Origin: Candidatus Synechococcus calcipolaris G9
GTDB taxonomy: Bacteria; Cyanobacteriota; Cyanobacteriia; Thermosynechococcales; Thermosynechococcaceae
DNA: 64,000 nt
NCBI RefSeq assembly: GCF_029582805.1
Contig: NZ_JAKKUT010000002.1
Coordinates: forward strand, 1,202,001-1,266,000
Direction: 5' to 3'
The notes beneath the pieces are model-generated. The model was not told the DNA's origin. It saw only the letters and a program-made list of their open reading frames with translations, and ran no database searches. How positions within the stretch are numbered: the first letter of the stretch is position 1; each line of letters begins with the position of its first letter. The translations under genes and the position numbers were made by a program. Of this stretch, positions 5,433 to 64,000 are shown one piece after another.

Positions 5433-6497
5433 ATGGATTCAATTTTTCCAGTGATTTGGTTTGAGGATCGGGTTCGACTCATTGATCAAACTCGCCTGCC
5501 CAATGAGTACACGTTTGTGGATGTGCGCCTATCCAGTGACATGGCCGAAGCCATTCGCACCATGATTGTCCGGGGCGCACCCGCCATTGGTGTAGCAGCG
5601 GCCTTTGGCATAGTTTTAGGGTCCCGGGAATATACTGGCGATCAGGGGGATAAAACGGCGTTCTTGGCCCATTTAGAAACTGTGGCGGCAGAGTTGCGAC
5701 AAACTCGGCCCACGGCTGTAAATCTTTTCTGGGCGATCGCCAAAATGCTGGAGGCAGCCAAGGGGCATTCCGGTTCGATTCCTAAGATTCAAGAAGATCT
5801 GCTCAAAACCGCCCAATCCATTGCCACAGAGGATGTGGAAACCTGTCGCGCCATTGGGGGCCATGGCCTGCGGGTGTTGCCGCCTACACCGGAAAAACTG
5901 CGAATTCTCACCCACTGTAATGCGGGGGCCTTGGCCACAGCGGGCTATGGAACGGCCCTAGGGGTGATTCGTTCTGCCTGGGGTAGCGATCGCCTTGAGC
6001 GGGTCTATGCCGATGAAACGCGCCCCCGGATGCAGGGAGCCAAACTCACCACCTGGGAATGTGTTCAGGAGGGCATTCCAGTAACGTTGATTGCCGATAC
6101 CATGGCCGCCCACTGTATGCAGCAGGGGTTAATTGATGCGGTGGTGGTGGGAGCTGATCGCATTGCCCGCAATGGGGATACCGCAAATAAAATTGGTACC
6201 TATAGTGTTGCCCTCGCCGCCCAGGCCCATGGGATTCCCTTCTATGTGGCAGCCCCCGTTTCCACCATTGATTTTAAGCTTGGCAGTGGCGTAGAAATTC
6301 CCATTGAGGAGCGAAATCCCCAGGAAATCTATCAAGTTGGGTTTAGTCGCATTTGCCCCGCAGGGGTTGATTTTTATAACCCCGCCTTTGATGTCACTCC
6401 GGCCCACCTGATTACGGGCATCATTACGGAGCATGGGGCGTTTTCCCCTGGAGAGTTAGCGTCGGGTTTAGGGGAAATGAATCTTATCCAGGATTAA
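5433..6497 (+). CDS. mtnA: S-methyl-5-thioribose-1-phosphate isomerase
   Basis: 354 aa, ATG start. The catalytic motifs of the family are present: [18 protein letters not shown] near residue 45, the cysteine loop [18 protein letters not shown] near 160, and the aspartate loop [20 protein letters not shown] near 235. It converts methylthioribose-1-phosphate to the ribulose form in the methionine salvage pathway; the fold is shared with eIF2B-like proteins, but the C and D residues mark the isomerase. No other salvage genes are in the window. Its 3' end overlaps the 3' end of the convergent sufD gene by 30 bp, so there is no room for a conventional terminator between them. Confidence 0.95.
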
Positions 6498-7817
6498 CTG
6501 CTCTAGCCGCAGGCGCAAATTAGGCATCGGAATTTTATCCAGTTGCTCGATCGCAAAGGCTTTGACCAGTAAATCCTGAGCTTGCTGCGGATCTAAACCA
6601 CGACTTTGCAGATAGAAAATATCCTCAGGATTGAGTTGGCTCACCGTAGCACCGTGGGCACATTTGACATTATCCGCCACAATTTCTAGCTGGGGCTTAG
6701 TATCCACCCGCGCCTTCGGTGACAGCAACAAGGTTCGGCTCATTTGGGCCGCATCCGTGAGTTGGGCCGCCTTGGGAACATCAATTTTGCCATTGAAAAC
6801 TGCCCGGGCGCGATCGCCAACAATACATTTATGCACCTGCTGACTACGGCCATGGGGGGCACTAAAGTAAATCCCGGAATGGGTATCCGCCAACTGCTCT
6901 CCCGTGGCAACCACGAGGCCATGGAGTTGGGTATCCGTTTGCTCTCCCTGGCAGAAAACGTGCCAATTATGACGACCGACAAGACCGCCCACACTAATGC
7001 TATTCCCCTGGTAGTGGCTATCCCGAGCCTGAGAAATCACCGTTTTGCCCACGATGACACTGCGATCTCCCAGATTTTGCATCCGCACATGATTGATGTG
7101 GGCATTCGTCCCTAGGTAAATTTCCGTTACGCCATTAATGAAATGCTCATCCCTCCCCTGGGAAAGATACTCTTCCACCAAGGTTACGGTACTGTTGGCA
7201 GCCCCCAGCACCAAAAGACGGGGTTGAATCACTTTGGCAGGGCCGGGGGTGAATAAATGGACAATATGAATGGGGCGGCTAATGGCCTGGTTCCCCAAAA
7301 CCTGTAAAATTGCCGCATCCTGAAATCGAGCCGTATTCAAGGCCGTAAAAACCTCGTCCCCGTCGGGTAATTGCCCCAAGTAGGGCCGCACCTGGTCAAC
7401 CTGGCCCCTAAGATTTGTCAGGGTCACTGTGGCCGTGGGGGGGACATGGCTGAGATGGCTGGCAAAATGGCCATCGACAAAAATTAGGGTATAGGCGTCA
7501 TCCAGGGTGCGATCGCCCAAAAAGCAATGGGCCGATTCTAGGGTGGCCCCATCTGGCTCGGTTTCTAGGGGATCAAATTTTCGAGAGACCAGGGGAGATA
7601 GATCCGTAAATCGCCAATCCTCATCCTTTGTCGTGGGTAGGGACTGCTCATGTAAAAAATCTAAGGCCCGATCCCGCAGCCCTTCCAGGTAGACCACCCC
7701 ATCCCCACCAATTTTTTCGTCATCTAAGGGGGCCGGCAGAGCCAAGAGATCCGCCAACTGGGTGACACCAGCGATCGCCCGGGTTTCCGCCCGATCCGAG
7801 TTAGCAACAACTGACAT
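6468..7817 (-). CDS. sufD: Fe-S cluster assembly scaffold protein SufD
   Basis: 449 aa. The beta-helix core typical of SufB/SufD is seen from about residue 190, with [31 protein letters not shown], the segment [20 protein letters not shown], the conserved [20 protein letters not shown] and [16 protein letters not shown], and [29 protein letters not shown] near 390. SufD joins SufB and the ATPase SufC in the SUF complex that builds Fe-S clusters. The start codon overlaps the stop of sufC by one base (TAATG), which implies translational coupling. Unusually for cyanobacteria, sufB does not precede the pair and sufS does not follow it; mtnA converges on this gene instead. Confidence 0.95.
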
Positions 7818-30222: not shown

Positions 30223-30396
30223 TGATCGATAGGACTGCTCAATACAAAGGGGATTCACCCATGCCTCCCTAGGCTGATTGAGTAAATAACAGAAGGATGA
30301 AATTTGCGTTATACGGAGAGAGAGTCATTGTAAATAGGACTTGAAACAACTTATATGACTGGGTTCACATGGAGGGTGAGTCTTAATGTGCTCACA

Positions 30397-30572
30397 AAAA
30401 TGCCCCCAGATTATTGTCGCTGGGAAAAGATGGGAGTAGAGGTTTTGAGATACTGCTGGGCGTAGACTTCCTGTCGATGGCATTTCATCTGCCGGCCCTA
30501 GAACCATTATGGACAGTAAGATGTCAGCTTATCATTTTGTTGTAAAAGTTTGAAGATTCACTCGGACATGGG
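30397..30572 (-). repeat. dispersed ~175-bp element, copy A
   Basis: Read on the minus strand, this stretch aligns almost ungapped with 57828-58000 at roughly 75-80% identity by eye, including an identical 16-mer (ATAAGCTGACATCTTA). Two helices are conserved by paired change: CCCAG/CTGGG here (30405-30409 with 30420-30424 on the plus strand) is CCCAA/TTGGG in copy B, and CT-a-GGGC/GCCCAG here is CC-g-GGGC/GCCCGG in copy B. A 60-codon frame on the minus strand (30325-30507; LRPAVSQNLYSHLFPATIIW inside) is open here but broken by stops in copy B. Could be a structured RNA, a mobile-element end or a decayed gene. Confidence 0.75.
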
Positions 30573-30661: not shown

Positions 30662-30853
30662 GTAGAAATCCGAGAGAATCTCAAGGAAGAGTTTGAGGTG
30701 GGCGCAAAGCGTTGGGTCGTAGAGCGTACGTTTGGGTGGTTGAATTTTTATCGACGATTGAGTAAAGACTACGAGTTGTTGCCTGAAGTCTCTGAGTCAG
30801 CCATCTATGCGGTAATGGTTCACCTGACACTACGCTACCTTGCCCCTGCTTAA
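30662..30853 (+). pseudogene. transposase remnant (IS5-like DDE, C-terminal end)
   Basis: About 63 codons ending in TAA at 30851-30853 translate to a typical DDE transposase tail: [40 protein letters not shown]. The VERTFGWL...RRLSKDYE motif with the catalytic Glu is the C1 region of IS5-family (IS1031/IS4-like) transposases. An in-frame stop lies just upstream and no N-terminal catalytic region is present, so only a relic of the 3' end remains. No terminal inverted repeats were found around it. The 800-bp gap between the methyltransferase and ychF is otherwise without genes apart from repeat copy A. Confidence 0.85.
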
Positions 30854-30974
30854 TCTTTCTTTTTAAACAGCCTCTTAGGGGAATTGTGGAATGAAGTGAT
30901 GGCAGAACTACCAAAAAGTTGAGGATCAAGGGCTGATTTTAGGCAAACTTTAGGCAAGATTTTTTAGGCAGGGC

Positions 30975-38727: not shown

Positions 38728-41700
38728 CTAGGGACAATCTAAGGCATCAAGCATTGCTGCCCACTGCTCAGGGGTGAGATCATTGAATGTTCCACCCGCG
38801 CCCTCCGCTTCGCTGTCTAGATCACACACCACCTCTTCATCATTAGAGGCGGATTCTTGTCCCTGAAGAATCGTGGCAATATCCGAGGGGCCATTGGTAT
38901 CAGGATCGTTGGGAACGACATCCACCTGGGGACTAGCCTCGAAACTGGTCGATGTGACTGGAGAACTGGCGGTAGCCGATGGTACAGAAGAGGAAGGCGT
39001 TGGCGTGGGGCTGATAGCCGTTGATTCTGAGGAGCTAGGGTCAGGGAGAACAGTATTAGGATTCAGTTGGCTGGGATCGATTTGATACAGAAAACCATTG
39101 CCAGTAAAGGTGGCTGGATCTGGATAAACCGTATTAAACTGTTCGGCTCCCACTAACCCGCCCTTGCTATTGGACGCTGGCGAAAACGAATAGACTAACC
39201 AGTCGCCCACAGTCGATTCAATTCCGTTTGCACCTGCATTATTAATAAAGCTACTGGGAGTAACCAAGGTAATTGAGTTTTGGGCTTGCACTGGCTCATT
39301 CAAGATTAAATTGCCTGACTGGGTGCGAATATTAACGCTATTGGCACCCGTCACCCCCGTTGGATTCACTTGACCAATGATCAATGTCCCTGAATTGACA
39401 AATTCAATATCACCCGTTGCATCACTGGCAAAGGTTTGAACCGTATTACCCGTGTGATCAAAGGTAAAGGAAACATTTCCGGAAAAGGCAAGTCCTTGAG
39501 CAACCACCGGCTGGGTTTGAGTAACGGCTCCCCCTGCATTGAGGGTAATTGCCCCCTGAGAGGTTAATCCATTTGTTGTACCAACGGTGCCAATCGTAAA
39601 GCCGCCACTATCTCGATAGCTAATGGCCCCGGTGGTATTTCCGGCCAGGGTGGCGATCGCATTGCCGGGATTCTCTAGTTCAACATTCCCCTGAGCGATT
39701 AACCCTAAATTAGCGATCGCTAAATTTGCACCAGCGGTTTGGTTAATCCCCTGCCCCGTGACCAATTGCAGTGTATTGGTATTTGTGGGCGATAGGAGAG
39801 CGGAAATTTCAATAGAACCACTGTTGGTGTCACCAATTTGCAGTATTCCAGCCGTAATTTTATTTAACTCAGCAGACACCAAACTCAATTTACCCGCCGT
39901 TTTTGTCCCCAGATCTATCTCATGACCATTGCTGAAGGGCCGCACCGTTACCTGATGGGTTCCGGCATTCACCGCTCCATTATTCAATGCCATTTCATTG
40001 GCAATAAGCGTCAGGTTGTCCCCTGACAGAATACTACCCGAGCTTATGGTGAGACTATTTCCTGCGGTTAGGGAAATGATGCCGCCGCTACTAGCTGTCC
40101 CGGTAGCAGAGCTAGAACTGGTATTAATGCCTTGAGTTGTAATATTGCCGTTTGTCGTTAGAGAAACACTCCCCCCTAAATTTGCATTACCAATCCCAGC
40201 ATTGATGCGACTAGAGTTAGCGTTAATGGCACCTACCTGAATATTGCCGGTTTGGGTAGTGATTGCCAGATTTCCAGCATCTCCGGCATTACCAGCACCG
40301 CCCTGAGTGCGTTGGGAATTGGTAGAAATTGCTGTGGTTGTTACATTCCCTTGGGCTGTTAAAGTCACTGGAGCAGCATTTCCAGCATTGCCACCCCCGG
40401 CTCCAGTGCGATTAGAATTAGCCGTAATCGCAGCCGTCGTAATTGTTCCAGCAGCGGATAGATTGATCGGAGCAGCATTCCCAGCGTTGCCACTCCCACC
40501 TCCAGTACGACTCGAATTAGCCGTAATTGCAGCCGTATTCAAACTACCCGCTGAATTTAAGGCAATGCTCCCCGCATTCCCAGCATTATGATTATTAATC
40601 CCGGTAGAAACCGTTGATCCAGAGTTCAAAGCCCCTGTAGAGGCAATATTCCCTGAGGTTTGGGTGGTCAAGGAAATAGCTCCACCATTATTGGCTGCAC
40701 CAGTTGCAGAGACGGAACTAGTATTAATGGCTTGGGTATTAATATTGCCGTTCGCCGTCGTCAGGGAAATGATTCCCCCTAAACCTGCATTCCCAATCCC
40801 AGTAGTGGGGCGATTAGAACTAGCATTAATGGCACCTACTTGAATATTGCCGGTTTGGGTGGCGATTGTCAGATTTCCGGCATCTCCGGCATTACCAGCA
40901 CCACCCTGAGTGCGTTGGGAATTTGTAGAAATTGCTGTGGTTGTTACATTTCCTTGGGCTGTTAAAGTCACTGGAGCGGCATTTCCAGCATTGCCACCCC
41001 CGGCTCCAGTACGATTAGAATTAGCCGTAATCGCAGCAGTTGTAATTGTTCCAGCAGCGGATAGATTGATCGGAGCAGCATTGCCGGCATTGCCACTCCC
41101 ACCTCCAGTACGACTAGAATTAGCCGTAATTCCAGTAGTATTCAAATTACCCGCTGAATTTAAGGTAATGTTCCCCGCATTCCCAGCGTCATGATTATTA
41201 GTTCCGGCAGAAACCGTTGATCCAGAGTTCAAAGCCCCTGTAGAGGCAATATTCCCTGAGGTTTGGGTAGTTAAGGAAATAGCACCACCATTATTAGCTG
41301 CACCAGTTGCAGAGGCAGAACTGGTATTAATGGCTTGAGTATTAATATTGCCGTTCGCCGTCGTCAGGGATATGATTCCCCCTAAACCTGCATCCCCAAT
41401 CCCGGCATTTGCGCGATTAGAGCTAACATTGATGGCACCTACTTGGATGTTGCCAGTTTGGGTAGTGATTGTAAGATTTCCAGCATTTCCGGCATCACCA
41501 GCCCCTGCACCCGTGCGACTCGAATTAGCCGTAATACCGGCCGTAGTTAAACTTCCAGCAGAACTAAAGGTAATGTCGCCTGCGTTACCAGCATTATGAT
41601 TATTTGTCGCAGCAGAAACCGTTGAACGAGAATTCAAGGCCCCTGTAGAAATATTATTTCCTGAAGTTTGGGTAGTTAGGGAGATAGAACCGCCGTCACT

Positions 41701-43938
41701 AGCTGCCCCAGTAGTAGAGTTAGTCCAGGTATTAATGGCTTGGGTAGTAATATTGCCATTTGCCGTCGTCAGGGATATGATTCCCCCTAAACCTGCACCT
41801 CCAATCCCGGCATTTGCGCGATTAGAACTAGCATTAATGGCACCTACTTGGATGTTACCGGTTTGGGTAGTGATTGTTAGATTTCCGGCATTTCCGGCAT
41901 GACCAGCACCACCCTGAGTGCGTTGGGAATTGGTAGAAATTGCTGTGGTTGTTACATTCCCTTGGGCTGTTAAAGTAACAGAAGCGGCATTTCCAGCATT
42001 GCCACTACCGCCCCCAGTACGACTAGAATTTGCAGTAATCGCTCCAGTAGTAATTGCAGCCGCAGAGTTGACGGTAATTGTCCCCCCATTACCCACATTG
42101 TCAGCGGTTGCTCCTGCTAAACTGGCCCCAGCCGCTAGGTTTCTTAGGGTAATATTACCAACGGTACTGGTTACGGTAATTGAACCAGCATCATTGCTAC
42201 CATTGCTCGTGTTTAAGTCTCGGTTGGGCAAGTCAATGGATGCGGCATTGAGTACAATATCGCCACCATTTGTCCGAATGGTTCTCACTGGGGTTCCTGT
42301 TCCTGTTCGTCGAATCATGCCATTGGGGTCAAAAGAGCCATAGCCTGATGTCGGGCCCGCCAGTAAACTAACGTCACCACCATTGGTTGTAATATTGGCA
42401 TCCAGGTAAATATCCCGCCCTGCTTGAGCCGTTAAAGAAACTCCTGAATTGGCTAAACTCACCGGGTTATTAAAGCGAATATCGCGTGTAGCCTGTAACG
42501 TTACGTTGGTTGTTGCTGCATTTAAGGTGGCAGTATTCAAGACACTATTGTTCGTGCCATTGTCAGTAAATAGAACATTAGGCGCATTCGGCACTCCCGA
42601 ATTTGCTCCCGTGCTAATAGTCAAGTCTTGGGGATCCAACAACAACATCCCCGCTTGCCCTTGGGGTGCAAGGGTGTTGACCTGTCCGTCAAAATGCAGA
42701 TACTTTTTCCCCGATACCTCCACAAACCCACCATCACCGCCCAAATCTCCCCCCCGGGCAGAGATCATTCCCTGAAATATCGTACTGTTATCCGCCCAAT
42801 TAATGACTGTCCCGCCGTTACCCTGAGTCACAGCATCGACATTCATGACGGTGTTGCTATCTACAAATAAGTTCTGGGCATTGAAACTACTATCCAGGCG
42901 ACCCGTGCCTGCACTACCTCCTAGGTAATCCCCACCCCCCAGAATCGTGCCGCCACCCGCACCACCAGAGGCATTCAACTGAGCATTGACAAAGGCGACA
43001 TTAGAGCCAAGGACATTAATCTGTCCTCCCACCCCCTCAGGATTCGACACATCCATCGTGCCACTGGCAACCGTTGTTGCCCCCTCCACTGGCACATTCA
43101 CCTTACTGGGGTCATGAACCAAGCTAATCGTGCCATCGGCATTGTGTACTACACTATTCACCCGTGGACGATCTTCTCCTCCCGTAATCAATCGGGGTAA
43201 ATCCACCGCTTCAATCACCCCATCTTCAGGAATCCGATCCGCTGGAATCTCTAAACTAAGGATCATTCCCTCCTGGGAAATCCGTACCATGCCCGTTTCT
43301 GGAACCGCCTGAATTGTGATCCGTCCCCCCGGAGCCGATAGGGTTCCTGTATTGAACACCTGATGACCCATCAATGTTAAATTCTGCCCTGGACCAACGG
43401 CTAAATTCCCTTCATTGACGATAATTCCCGTGCTTAAAAACTCAAACCCGGTGGGGTTCCCGACGAGGTTGGCGTAGTCATTAAACCCATTAATGTCAAA
43501 AATACCGCCGTCAAAATGCACCCGTTGGGCGGTGGAGGCATGGAACGCTGCTGGTACGTTTAACTGGGCATTGGGCCCGAAAACAATTCCCGCCGGATTA
43601 AGTAAATAGAGGTTGCTGTTCCCCCCCATTACCTGGATTAAACCATTGATATAGCTGACATCGCCGCCATTCACGCCAGCGAGGATATTTTGAACATTGG
43701 GCTTGGAGAGAAAGTTGGCAATCTGACCATCATTCAGACCAAATTGCCGAAACAGATGAAATAAATTTTTGCCATCCCTGGAAAATGCACCGCCGCCAAT
43801 GTCAAATTGCTGACCATTTACCGTCACGGTTGTATTTGTAGCGTTAGCCGCAGGATGGATCTGGGCGATCGCAGGTAAGGGAAGAAGGCAACCCAGAGCC
43901 ACAACAGGAGAGAACCACCGACAAATTGTGTTTAACAT
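38728..43938 (-). CDS. filamentous haemagglutinin-like TPS exoprotein
   Basis: 1736 aa from the ATG at 43938 (an ATG nine codons upstream is less likely). Signal peptide MLNTICRWFSPVVALGCLLP ending AIAQ. The TPS secretion domain follows (TNTTVTVNGQQFDIGGGAFS, LFHLFRQFGLNDGQIANFLS, NVQNILAGVNGGDVSYINGL, NSNLYLLNPAGIVFGPNAQL), then a long Asn/Gly/Thr/Ala-rich parallel beta-helix with repeats such as ITANSSRTGGGSGNAGNAAP. A Pro/Ser/Thr linker (STAISPTPTPSSSVPSAT) precedes an acidic C-terminal tail. Such proteins are exported through a TpsB pore and act as adhesins or surface proteins. No tpsB gene is present in the window. Confidence 0.92.
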   Translation of the reverse strand: MLNTICRWFSPVVALGCLLPLPAIAQIHPAANATNTTVTVNGQQFDIGGGAFSRDGKNLFHLFRQFGLNDGQIANFLSKPNVQNILAGVNGGDVSYINGLIQVMGGNSNLYLLNPAGIVFGPNAQLNVPAAFHASTAQRVHFDGGIFDINGFNDYANLVGNPTGFEFLSTGIIVNEGNLAVGPGQNLTLMGHQVFNTGTLSAPGGRITIQAVPETGMVRISQEGMILSLEIPADRIPEDGVIEAVDLPRLITGGEDRPRVNSVVHNADGTISLVHDPSKVNVPVEGATTVASGTMDVSNPEGVGGQINVLGSNVAFVNAQLNASGGAGGGTILGGGDYLGGSAGTGRLDSSFNAQNLFVDSNTVMNVDAVTQGNGGTVINWADNSTIFQGMISARGGDLGGDGGFVEVSGKKYLHFDGQVNTLAPQGQAGMLLLDPQDLTISTGANSGVPNAPNVLFTDNGTNNSVLNTATLNAATTNVTLQATRDIRFNNPVSLANSGVSLTAQAGRDIYLDANITTNGGDVSLLAGPTSGYGSFDPNGMIRRTGTGTPVRTIRTNGGDIVLNAASIDLPNRDLNTSNGSNDAGSITVTSTVGNITLRNLAAGASLAGATADNVGNGGTITVNSAAAITTGAITANSSRTGGGSGNAGNAASVTLTAQGNVTTTAISTNSQRTQGGAGHAGNAGNLTITTQTGNIQVGAINASSNRANAGIGGAGLGGIISLTTANGNITTQAINTWTNSTTGAASDGGSISLTTQTSGNNISTGALNSRSTVSAATNNHNAGNAGDITFSSAGSLTTAGITANSSRTGAGAGDAGNAGNLTITTQTGNIQVGAINVSSNRANAGIGDAGLGGIISLTTANGNINTQAINTSSASATGAANNGGAISLTTQTSGNIASTGALNSGSTVSAGTNNHDAGNAGNITLNSAGNLNTTGITANSSRTGGGSGNAGNAAPINLSAAGTITTAAITANSNRTGAGGGNAGNAAPVTLTAQGNVTTTAISTNSQRTQGGAGNAGDAGNLTIATQTGNIQVGAINASSNRPTTGIGNAGLGGIISLTTANGNINTQAINTSSVSATGAANNGGAISLTTQTSGNIASTGALNSGSTVSTGINNHNAGNAGSIALNSAGSLNTAAITANSSRTGGGSGNAGNAAPINLSAAGTITTAAITANSNRTGAGGGNAGNAAPVTLTAQGNVTTTAISTNSQRTQGGAGNAGDAGNLAITTQTGNIQVGAINANSSRINAGIGNANLGGSVSLTTNGNITTQGINTSSSSATGTASSGGIISLTAGNSLTISSGSILSGDNLTLIANEMALNNGAVNAGTHQVTVRPFSNGHEIDLGTKTAGKLSLVSAELNKITAGILQIGDTNSGSIEISALLSPTNTNTLQLVTGQGINQTAGANLAIANLGLIAQGNVELENPGNAIATLAGNTTGAISYRDSGGFTIGTVGTTNGLTSQGAITLNAGGAVTQTQPVVAQGLAFSGNVSFTFDHTGNTVQTFASDATGDIEFVNSGTLIIGQVNPTGVTGANSVNIRTQSGNLILNEPVQAQNSITLVTPSSFINNAGANGIESTVGDWLVYSFSPASNSKGGLVGAEQFNTVYPDPATFTGNGFLYQIDPSQLNPNTVLPDPSSSESTAISPTPTPSSSVPSATASSPVTSTSFEASPQVDVVPNDPDTNGPSDIATILQGQESASNDEEVVCDLDSEAEGAGGTFNDLTPEQWAAMLDALDCP
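40185..41390 (-). repeat. 603-bp tandem duplication inside the haemagglutinin gene
   Basis: Two copies, 40185-40787 and 40788-41390, are nearly identical; for example the block starting GTGCGTTGGGAATT near 40307 recurs near 40910 exactly 603 bp on. The unit encodes 201 residues and keeps the frame. Shorter diverged relatives occupy 41391-42010, where the GTGCGTTGGGAATTGG block appears again near 41918. The duplication lengthens the beta-helix stalk. Confidence 0.85.
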
Positions 43939-57208: not shown

Positions 57209-57290
57209 GGGCGAGTGGCGAAATGGTAGACGCACTACACTCAAAATGTAGCGGGGTTTCCCCATGTCAGTTCGAGTCTGACCTCGCCCA
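57209..57290 (+). tRNA. trnL-CAA: tRNA-Leu (anticodon CAA)
   Basis: 82 nt. Acceptor GGGCGAG (57209-57215) pairs with CTCGCCC before the discriminator A at 57290. The D arm GCGAAATGGTAGACGC, anticodon stem CTACA/TGTAG with loop CTCAAAA (CAA at 57242-57244), a long variable arm CGGGGTTTCCCCAT and the T arm GTCAG-TTCGAGT-CTGAC all fold. CCA is not encoded. It reads UUG codons. Confidence 0.95.
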
Positions 57291-57339: not shown

Positions 57340-57361
57340 TGGCTGGGCGATCGCCCAGCCA
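57340..57361. repeat. 22-bp perfect palindrome centred on HIP1
   Basis: The 22 bases from 57340 to 57361 are self-complementary, with GGGCGATCGCCC at the centre. The hairpin lacks a T-run on either side, so it is not a standard terminator. It lies 49 bp after tRNA-Leu. Extended HIP1 palindromes are common in cyanobacteria; this is one of the longest seen here. The rest of the 57291-57474 interval shows no gene. Confidence 0.7.
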
Positions 57362-57474
57362 GGCACATCAACCCCATCACCGGCGGCGGATGTTTCCCCA
57401 TCCTCTGAGATGGCAGAGCAGCCTGCCAAGCGTAAGTGAGGGCGACCACGGAAGACCTCTATGGAGTCAAAGCC

Positions 57475-57771
57475 ATGAGTGAGCAGATCACAGCCAGTGA
57501 AGCCAAGCAAATCATGGACTTACTGCAATCCATGGATAAGAAGCTAGATGTCCACATTGCAGAAACGAAGGGGCAATTTAATACAGTTCATACCGAGATT
57601 AAGGCTCTCAATGACAAGGTTGATGGCTTACGCTCTGAACTGCGGGATGACATTACCGAACTGCGTGGACAACAGAAAACGACTGATGCAAGGTTATGGG
57701 GCTTCATTGTGGCCCTGGTGACTCTGGTTGGCAGTGGCGTGATTAAGGTTCTCTGGTTTGACCGTGCCTAA
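57475..57771 (+). CDS. coiled-coil protein with C-terminal membrane anchor, copy 1
   Basis: 98 aa from the ATG at 57475 (MSEQITASEAKQIMDLLQSM); the frame upstream is not family-like. Residues ~10-70 are heptad-patterned (KKLDVHIAETKGQFNTVHTE; IKALNDKVDGLRSELRDDIT), followed by ARLWGFIVALVTLVGSGVIK, a membrane anchor, and a short tail. The C-terminal block QQKTTDARLWGFIVAL is closely matched in the gene at 63213-63590 (RQKTVDSRLWGFIVTL), so these are paralogues. The layout resembles XhlA/holin-associated and Bdr-like coiled-coil proteins; function unknown. Confidence 0.72.
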   Translation: MSEQITASEAKQIMDLLQSMDKKLDVHIAETKGQFNTVHTEIKALNDKVDGLRSELRDDITELRGQQKTTDARLWGFIVALVTLVGSGVIKVLWFDRA

Positions 57772-57798
57772 AAAAATACCCAGACCTGCAAGTCTGGG
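57771..57798 (-). terminator. hairpin with T-run on the minus strand
   Basis: CCCAGAC (57779-57785) and GTCTGGG (57792-57798) form a 7-bp stem with a 6-nt loop. On the minus strand the stem is followed by TATTTTTTT, a classic terminator; on the plus strand there is no T-run. Leftward transcription from the repeat B region would end here. It also lies just after the stop of the coiled-coil gene. Confidence 0.5.
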
Positions 57799-57827: not shown

Positions 57828-58000
57828 CCCATGTCTGAATGAGACTTCAAAACCTCACAACTAAATAATAAGCTGACATCTTATGTCCATACCAGTTCCG
57901 GGGCTGGCAGATGAAACGCCAATGACAGGGACTTTACGCCCGGCGGTATCTTAAAAAGTCTATTCCCATCTTTCCCAAGCAACGATCATTTGGGGGTAAT
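57828..58000 (+). repeat. dispersed ~175-bp element, copy B
   Basis: Homologous to 30397-30572 in opposite orientation, with blocks such as ATAAGCTGACATCTTA and GGCAGATGAAA shared. Helix 1 is CC-g-GGGC (57898-57904) with GCCCGG (57938-57943); helix 2 is CCCAA (57974-57978) with TTGGG (57990-57994). The reading frame that is open in copy A is interrupted here by TAA after the PAVS codons and again further on, so this copy cannot encode the same peptide. It ends 85 bp before an IS3-type orfA remnant. Confidence 0.75.
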
Positions 58001-58084
58001 TCTGGGGGTATATCGTGAACAGGCTTCAGAAGAAACCCATTTATATCAACGGTTTGAATGGTCTAGCTGGATGGAGACCTCGCC

Positions 58085-58215
58085 ATGGCCACCATTCGCG
58101 GTGAAAAGACGGAGTCTGAGTTAGTGAGCCAATGGAAATTTACCCAACGATGCTTCACACTTGGAAGTACCAGCTTGACGCTTGGTTTGAACAAAGCTTT
58201 CTTGGTCAGGAGTGA
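58085..58215 (+). pseudogene. IS3-family orfA transposase remnant
   Basis: MATIRGEKTESELVSQWK begins at the ATG at 58085 and matches the helix-turn-helix of IS3 OrfA proteins (consensus style: A-L-R-G-E-K-T-x-x-E-L-A-S). A frameshift near 58132 then continues the same domain as EIYPTMLHTWKYQLDAWFEQ and stops at 58213-58215, matching the HPxQIxxWKKQLLE region. No orfB or terminal repeats are visible. Only a relic remains, upstream of petH. Confidence 0.7.
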
Positions 58216-58400
58216 GACTCATGATCATATACACTTCTTATCCAGACGACCAGTTATTTTAAGCTGTTCTCCCATCTATTCTAGGTATAGAATGGCCTCG
58301 CAGAGATTCTAGTCAACCGGTTGCCTGTAACATTGTAGTTGGCGAGAGGAACGTTCTGTTGCAAAATGTAAAGCTGAATTTAGCATTGGAGATGGTGTAA

Positions 58401-63647: not shown

Positions 63648-64000
63648 GTTTCCATTAGTTCGACTTCTTGGGATAGAAGCCATTCTAAAAAGTGGATTCA
63701 ACCTAAACCATTGGCAAAGCCGTTTCCATTAGTTCGACTTCTTGGGATAGAAGCCATGTATATGCTACTCACACTAACTTGCTTTTTTATTCGTTTCCAT
63801 TAGTTCGACTTCTTGGGATAGAAGCCATCAGATACTGCATGGCATGACAGCTAAGATCAACGTGTTTCCATTAGTTCGACTTCTTGGGATAGAAGCCATG
63901 TATATGCTACTCACACTAACTTGCTTTTTTATTCGTTTCCATTAGTTCGACTTCTTGGGATAGAAGCCATCAGATACTGCATGGCATGACAGCTAAGATC
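63648..64000 (-). CRISPR. CRISPR array, trailer end (continues past right edge)
   Basis: Five identical 36-bp repeats (63648-63683, 63722-63757, 63793-63828, 63864-63899, 63935-63970) beginning GTTTCCATTAGTTCG and ending GATAGAAGCCAT, with an internal CTTCT/AGAAG stem. Spacers are 38, 35, 35 and 35 bp, plus a partial fifth. Read on the minus strand, the repeat ends in ATGGAAAC, a usual crRNA 5' handle, so transcription is probably leftward and the leader lies off the right edge. Spacer 4 is identical to spacer 2 and the visible 30 bp of spacer 5 match spacer 3. No cas gene is in the window. Confidence 0.97.

Follow-up and report, generated by a model that had tools for sequence, protein, structure and literature searches.

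Genomic context of the repeat

The window, i.e. the whole 64,000-nucleotide stretch of DNA analysed here, contains two copies of a repeat: copy A (30397-30572, minus strand; conserved core 30440-30547; locus L004) and copy B (57828-58000, plus strand; locus L001). The copies share 78.7% identity over 178 nt in a pairwise alignment of 30395-30572 (minus) with 57828-58004 (plus; E 6e-35). The homology core of ~95 nt corresponds to positions 57860-57959 of the window, and weaker homology continues onward to ~58075. Copy B is located beside petH and is preceded by a tRNA-Leu(CAA) gene (57209-57290, plus), a gene 1 remnant just downstream of it (57345-57454, plus), gene 2 (57475-57771, plus) and a hairpin with a T-run on the minus strand (57779-57798). 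The gene 1 remnant has a broken reading frame and corresponds to the C-terminus of a small RHH-like/AT-hook-like protein characterized by a WLRRVITEAAxREL motif, with a KRRGRKPKG-like C-terminus in longer members. Gene 2 encodes a 98-aa protein with a coiled coil and a C-terminal TM segment. As an A-run precedes the hairpin on the plus strand, we interpret it as a minus-strand terminator, in agreement with a preliminary description of this DNA. The same description had reported transposase debris of two families close to the repeat. Beside copy A, an IS5-type DDE transposase remnant (30662-30853, plus), which is not part of the element, was identified in Pfam (DDE_Tnp_1_2, 1e-12), whereas the IS3 OrfA-like scrap beside copy B (58085-58220) was seen by eye only and had no Pfam match.

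A nucleotide search of the source genome recovered four copies with 79-100% identity. The two outside the window are found on contigs C2 (699165-699334, minus; 90% identity) and C8 (33120-33290, plus; 84% identity; L003). Among relatives, the repeat occurs three times in G009 and once in G022, giving a total of eight copies in three genomes of the family; the two-copy element of ~75-80% identity described initially was thus correct in its identity but not in its copy number. A sequence model of the core retrieved the same eight copies alone from 29 family genomes, with everything else at chance level. Furthermore, an exact 21-mer from the core had no match in genome and viral contigs and hence revealed no further copies. 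In seven of the eight copies, gene 1, gene 2 or both precede the repeat, usually with a hairpin in between, while the far side differs in each copy and mostly contains a chromosomal gene. Gene 2 is found in the same order at L003, L006 and L008 and is represented by a paralogue at L005, and hairpin equivalents were recognized by sequence in the corresponding position at L002, L003, L005 and L008. The gene 1 remnant of the window shares 91.8% DNA identity with the end of gene 1 in the tRNA-Ser island (L002) described below. The gene 2 family as a whole comprises up to 24 matches per genome, and at one locus several copies are arranged in tandem (L047; G018:C1:453440-455358).

Coding potential and RNA structure

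All six reading frames are broken in most of the eight copies and one-base indels are present, which argues against a decayed gene, i.e. the remains of one protein-coding frame, and agrees with the earlier observation that the sizeable frame is not kept open across copies. Substitutions are slightly uneven over the three phases (0.31, 0.19, 0.21) and copy A contains a 60-aa ORF, as might be expected of a former gene; however, the most variable phase yields no open frame common to the copies, and the other family genomes yielded no group of homologues sharing an open frame. We therefore regard a decayed gene as highly improbable.

The preliminary description had proposed a structured RNA as one of two readings, based on two stems that keep pairing despite changes on both sides. 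This is true for copies A and B alone, with stem 1 pairing in both only after a one-base register shift, but the case weakens when all eight copies are considered: the proposed stems are 80.5% paired compared with 77.5% in shuffles, and their covariation score was equalled by 43 of 500 shuffles. Stem 1 in the copy-A register has zero both-side changes among the eight copies, and the RNAalifold covariation term is only -0.5. On neither strand did the repeat fold better than shuffled sequences (z +1.1, +0.6, +1.2), and Rfam comparisons at the gathering threshold and at E 10 gave nothing convincing on the element and no match covering the core. Because Rfam gave no match and both stability and covariation were near shuffle level, RNA was rejected as the main reading. 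An RNA encoded on the plus strand, or a minus-strand sRNA ending at the hairpin 57779-57798, would be consistent with the few both-side changes in the stems and with the minus-strand terminator-like hairpin kept beside five copies. As the covariation is register-dependent and the attR position of the repeat (see below) would already account for its conservation, we consider such an RNA quite improbable.

Displaced fragments of target genes

Seven of the eight copies are followed, 52-75 nt beyond the repeat, by the displaced 3' fragment of a target gene; at the remaining locus (L006), other genes, including an IS110-type one, follow before any fragment could be seen. In the tRNA-Ser island (L002), the element is followed by a near-identical 113-bp repeat that opens with the 3' end of tRNA-Ser(GCT); the tRNA-Ser(GCT) gene itself is located 11.6 kb upstream and has the same orientation as the fragment. 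At L005, 55 of 55 nt correspond to the 3' part of tRNA-Val(GAC), the intact gene of which is 45 kb away, and at L008 the fragment matches the neighbouring tRNA-Met (11/11 nt). The fragment at the C8 copy (L003) is identical to tRNA-Ala(CGC) over 13/13 nt, and that of copy A (CTCTCTCTCCGTAT; 30311-30324, minus) comprises the tRNA-Ser(GCT) 3' end and two flanking nt (14/14), the cognate tRNA being located elsewhere in both cases. Behind copy B, the putative attR fragment GACCTCGCC (58076-58084, plus) matches the 3' end of tRNA-Leu(CAA) over 9/9 nt, which is weak alone but found at the same position as in the other copies. Judging from this match, tRNA-Leu(CAA) is probably the target of copy B, and the tRNA-Leu(CAA) gene upstream of the gene 1 remnant would be its attL-side target. 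In G009, a broken integrase belonging to the family of the island integrases lies behind tRNA-Leu(CAA) (L172:4637-5390).

At L007, the target is a protein-coding gene, namely that of a rhodanese: 12/12 nt of its 3' end recur behind the repeat, 27 kb from the gene. The interrupted gene now ends in SMSFKSETV and the attR side reads DWCSYQI followed by a stop codon, while all 19 family homologues have SWSDWC[SA]Y after the insertion point. As read from these sequences, the normal C-terminus of the rhodanese is restored at the L007 attR junction. Altogether, an intact target on one side, with an identically oriented displaced fragment on the other, was observed at L002, L005, L007 and L008, and weakly at L001. 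A comparison of the flanks of tRNA-Ser, petH and htpG with stretches of G009 for empty sites yielded no homology.

Copies that are scattered over the genome with transposase debris close by could also represent a MITE-like non-autonomous transposon or the end of an IS. However, one fixed side of the repeat faces the target gene fragment, the order gene 1 - gene 2 - hairpin - repeat is constant, the transposase debris lies outside the element, and searches of plasmid and phage DNA collections with the repeat gave no match, making this explanation extremely unlikely. The suggestion that the element is not part of the neighbouring ISs was correct. Likewise, the mobile-element end that had been offered as an alternative to RNA is supported by the displaced fragments and the integrases described below, as an attR-side island end and not as an IS end.

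Islands and their integrases

L002 and L007 represent islands of 11.6 and 27 kb, respectively, with a P4-type integrase adjoining the target. These integrases (L097:10836-12104 for L002 and L173:8225-9439 for L007) are located at the opposite ends from the repeat, contain Arm-DNA-bind_3, Phage_int_M and Phage_integrase domains and are 80% identical to each other; that of L007 lies directly behind the rhodanese gene. With the exception of the rhodanese case, integrase loci with an intact 5' flank lie directly behind a tRNA or tmRNA gene. Integrases of this kind were identified in 11 of 291 genomes of the class, while none is left at the tRNA-Leu remnant in the window and at the tRNA-Met remnant.

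The tRNA-Ser island encodes AlpA, a DUF5906 primase, RusA and a TerS-like protein, in addition to SWIM and Rho_N proteins and to ORFs at 6047-6502 that we read as HicAB. No capsid protein was recognized among the scanned ORFs of this island, which thus combines an integrase, an AlpA-type regulator and a primase without a capsid gene. In its size, P4-type integrase, AlpA, primase, TerS-like protein and lack of a recognized capsid gene, the island resembles P4-like phage satellites and PICIs, from which it differs by the presence of RusA, SWIM and Rho_N proteins and by having no known helper phage. Two islands of G009 carry defence systems: BrxB, BrxC, PglX and PglZ (BREX) are encoded in the tRNA-Val island (L005), and DrmA, DrmB, DrmC and DrmMI (DISARM) in the rhodanese island (L007).

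Tycheposons are tRNA-integrated elements of marine picocyanobacteria with a tyrosine recombinase. By description alone, the islands resemble Tycheposons as cyanobacterial tRNA-integrated elements with such an enzyme.

Putative arm-type sites

The tail of the repeat contains TTGGGG(G)-type repeats, often 12 bp apart, at 60-86 nt from the crossover, and TTGGGGG or CTGGGGG is found 70-86 nt ahead of the fragment in most copies. In copy B, the tandem putative arm-type site TTGGGGGtaattCTGGGGG (57990-58008, plus) has a 12-bp spacing, its two units being 86 and 74 nt ahead of the putative crossover; it is the sole match to YTGGGGGYANNNYTGGGG in the window, with 0.01 expected. Copy A contains a single putative arm-type site, CTGGGGG (30403-30409, minus), 85 nt before the crossover, and the tandem of L002, again with a 12-bp spacing, is located 72 and 60 nt ahead of the fragment. 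No clean arm motif was found at L005, which diverges after the core, and L008 has a mutated form, TTTGAGGG, at the site.

The motif was found by inspecting these copies and was then tested on further islands; being drawn from the same sequences, the consensus is post hoc for the copies of the repeat itself. In other genomes, attR was located by tRNA fragments (17, 12, 13 and 14 nt) and by comparison of two islands of G088. In G035, G111, G098, G088, L001, L002, L003 and L007, [TC]TGGGG and the att core are separated by 70-76 nt; in the four other genomes, the motif lies 72-76 nt ahead of the fragment. The exact 12-bp tandem was detected within a 41-nt window in G035, G098, G088, L002 and L001, compared with 0.001 expected per window; G111 lacks the exact tandem and G062_Val lacks the motif. 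Furthermore, the attL (P') arm of the tRNA-Ser island contains the same 12-bp tandem (CTGGGGGCACAATTGGGG). Putative arm-type direct repeats at a fixed distance from the crossover are hence present in both arms, though not in every island. With the exception of L001 and L002, the P arms are at most weakly alignable to one another. As TTGGGG(G) repeats recur at the same distance in other cyanobacterial islands, we read the repeat as the P arm of an attP.

The repeat as the probable attR-side end of tRNA-integrated islands

We conclude that the repeat is very probably the attR-side end, i.e. the P arm of attP, of tRNA-integrated islands with a tyrosine integrase and makes up their last ~250 bp, in line with the attP size of ~250 bp described for such islands (PMC4383910). 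In this model, the island in its circular form carries attP, and a P4-type tyrosine integrase would recombine this site with the 3' end of a tRNA or tmRNA gene or, in one case, of a protein-coding gene. After integration, attL at the integrase end would contain the restored target gene, and the original 3' fragment would be left past the opposite end (attR), at a distance of 52-75 nt from the repeat. The N-terminal arm-binding domain of the integrase is expected to hold the one or two TTGGGG(G) sites in the repeat tail, and the ~95-nt core is likely to contain additional accessory sites for an AlpA-like excisionase and a host bending protein. The sequences show directly that the repeat is located at island ends, that target fragments are displaced, that integrases are present and that the motif is conserved together with its spacing and distance; we infer from them the binding of proteins, a role of the repeat in excision and the function of its core. 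In the attP of the tRNA-Ser island, the repeat tail would be joined to the integrase-side arm across CTCTCTCTCCG. Copies A and B would represent scars of islands that were lost or rearranged, with copy B as the putative attR-side terminal segment of an island remnant.

A different cis-acting site, such as pac/cos, a replication origin or a transfer origin, might also be located at the island end by coincidence. The TerS-like, primase and AlpA genes of the tRNA-Ser island, as in phage satellites, and the conservation of the ~95-nt core beyond what arm sites alone require are compatible with this possibility. However, the portion shared with islands of other genera is the motif, whose distance from the crossover is fixed in the way that an attP arm would be expected to show, and remnant islands without such genes still keep this end; we thus consider a different cis-acting site unlikely.

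As an attR-side island end, the repeat belongs to a kind of DNA that is already known and is a further member of that kind. The islands share the features of those identified by the Islander principle (PMC4383910), namely a tRNA or tmRNA target, a restored gene at one end and a displaced 3' fragment at the other, and a tyrosine integrase at the tRNA end. They differ in that one arm sequence occurs here at several targets, including a protein-coding gene, and in that several copies are scars without an integrase. Arm-type direct repeats at a fixed crossover distance in both arms, beside an arm-binding integrase, are known for modules of the KplE1 type (PMC2951348). The KplE1 prophage (IntS/TorI, argW tRNA) likewise has arm- and core-type sites, a tRNA 3' end as target and sites for an excisionase (RDF) near att, but its sites were mapped by experiment, whereas those with the motif TTGGGG(G) are deduced here from sequence (PMC2951348). 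The repeat thereby turns from an unexplained intergenic repeat into a marker of island ends in this cyanobacterial family. In combination with the TTGGGG(G) tandem, it could be used to locate scars of lost islands and the exact borders of islands, including BREX and DISARM defence islands.

Exchange of island ends

G088 contains two near-identical islands of ~9.5 kb on contig C1, around 1258.7-1268.3 kb and 2715.5-2724.7 kb (L205-L210). The tmRNA island ends with a tRNA-Ala fragment, and the tRNA-Ala(GGC) island ends with a tmRNA fragment. As both islands are oppositely oriented, recombination between them would have inverted a segment of the chromosome. An exchange of ends must also be assumed for L003 and copy A, which are far from their cognate tRNA genes, and the case of G088 offers, by analogy, an explanation for both. 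That one end is common to many targets and that attR ends have been exchanged within one genome (G088) is mildly surprising. We tentatively hypothesize, as a possibility we do not favour over others, that islands sharing one conserved attP arm could freely retarget (Leu, Ser, Ala, Val, Met, tmRNA and rhodanese) by a change of the short core alone, that paired islands could give rise to large inversions in which attR ends are exchanged (G088 being one case, copy A and the C8 copy perhaps others), and that the islands could spread BREX and DISARM cargo. The islands provide a system for testing how tyrosine integrases switch their tRNA target yet keep their arm sites.

Apart from the repeat, the window contains an 11-bp tandem, TTTTAGGCAAACTTTAGGCAAG (30937-30958; 0.01 expected by chance), which differs by two mismatches from a repeat in the spacer between tRNA and integrase at a tRNA-Ala(CGC) integrase on contig C1 (L170). 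This site, next to ychF, probably represents the scar left by a different type of island. Long tandem repeats, the copies of which are mostly 75-90% identical, are present at 40066-42099 and 63648-64000.
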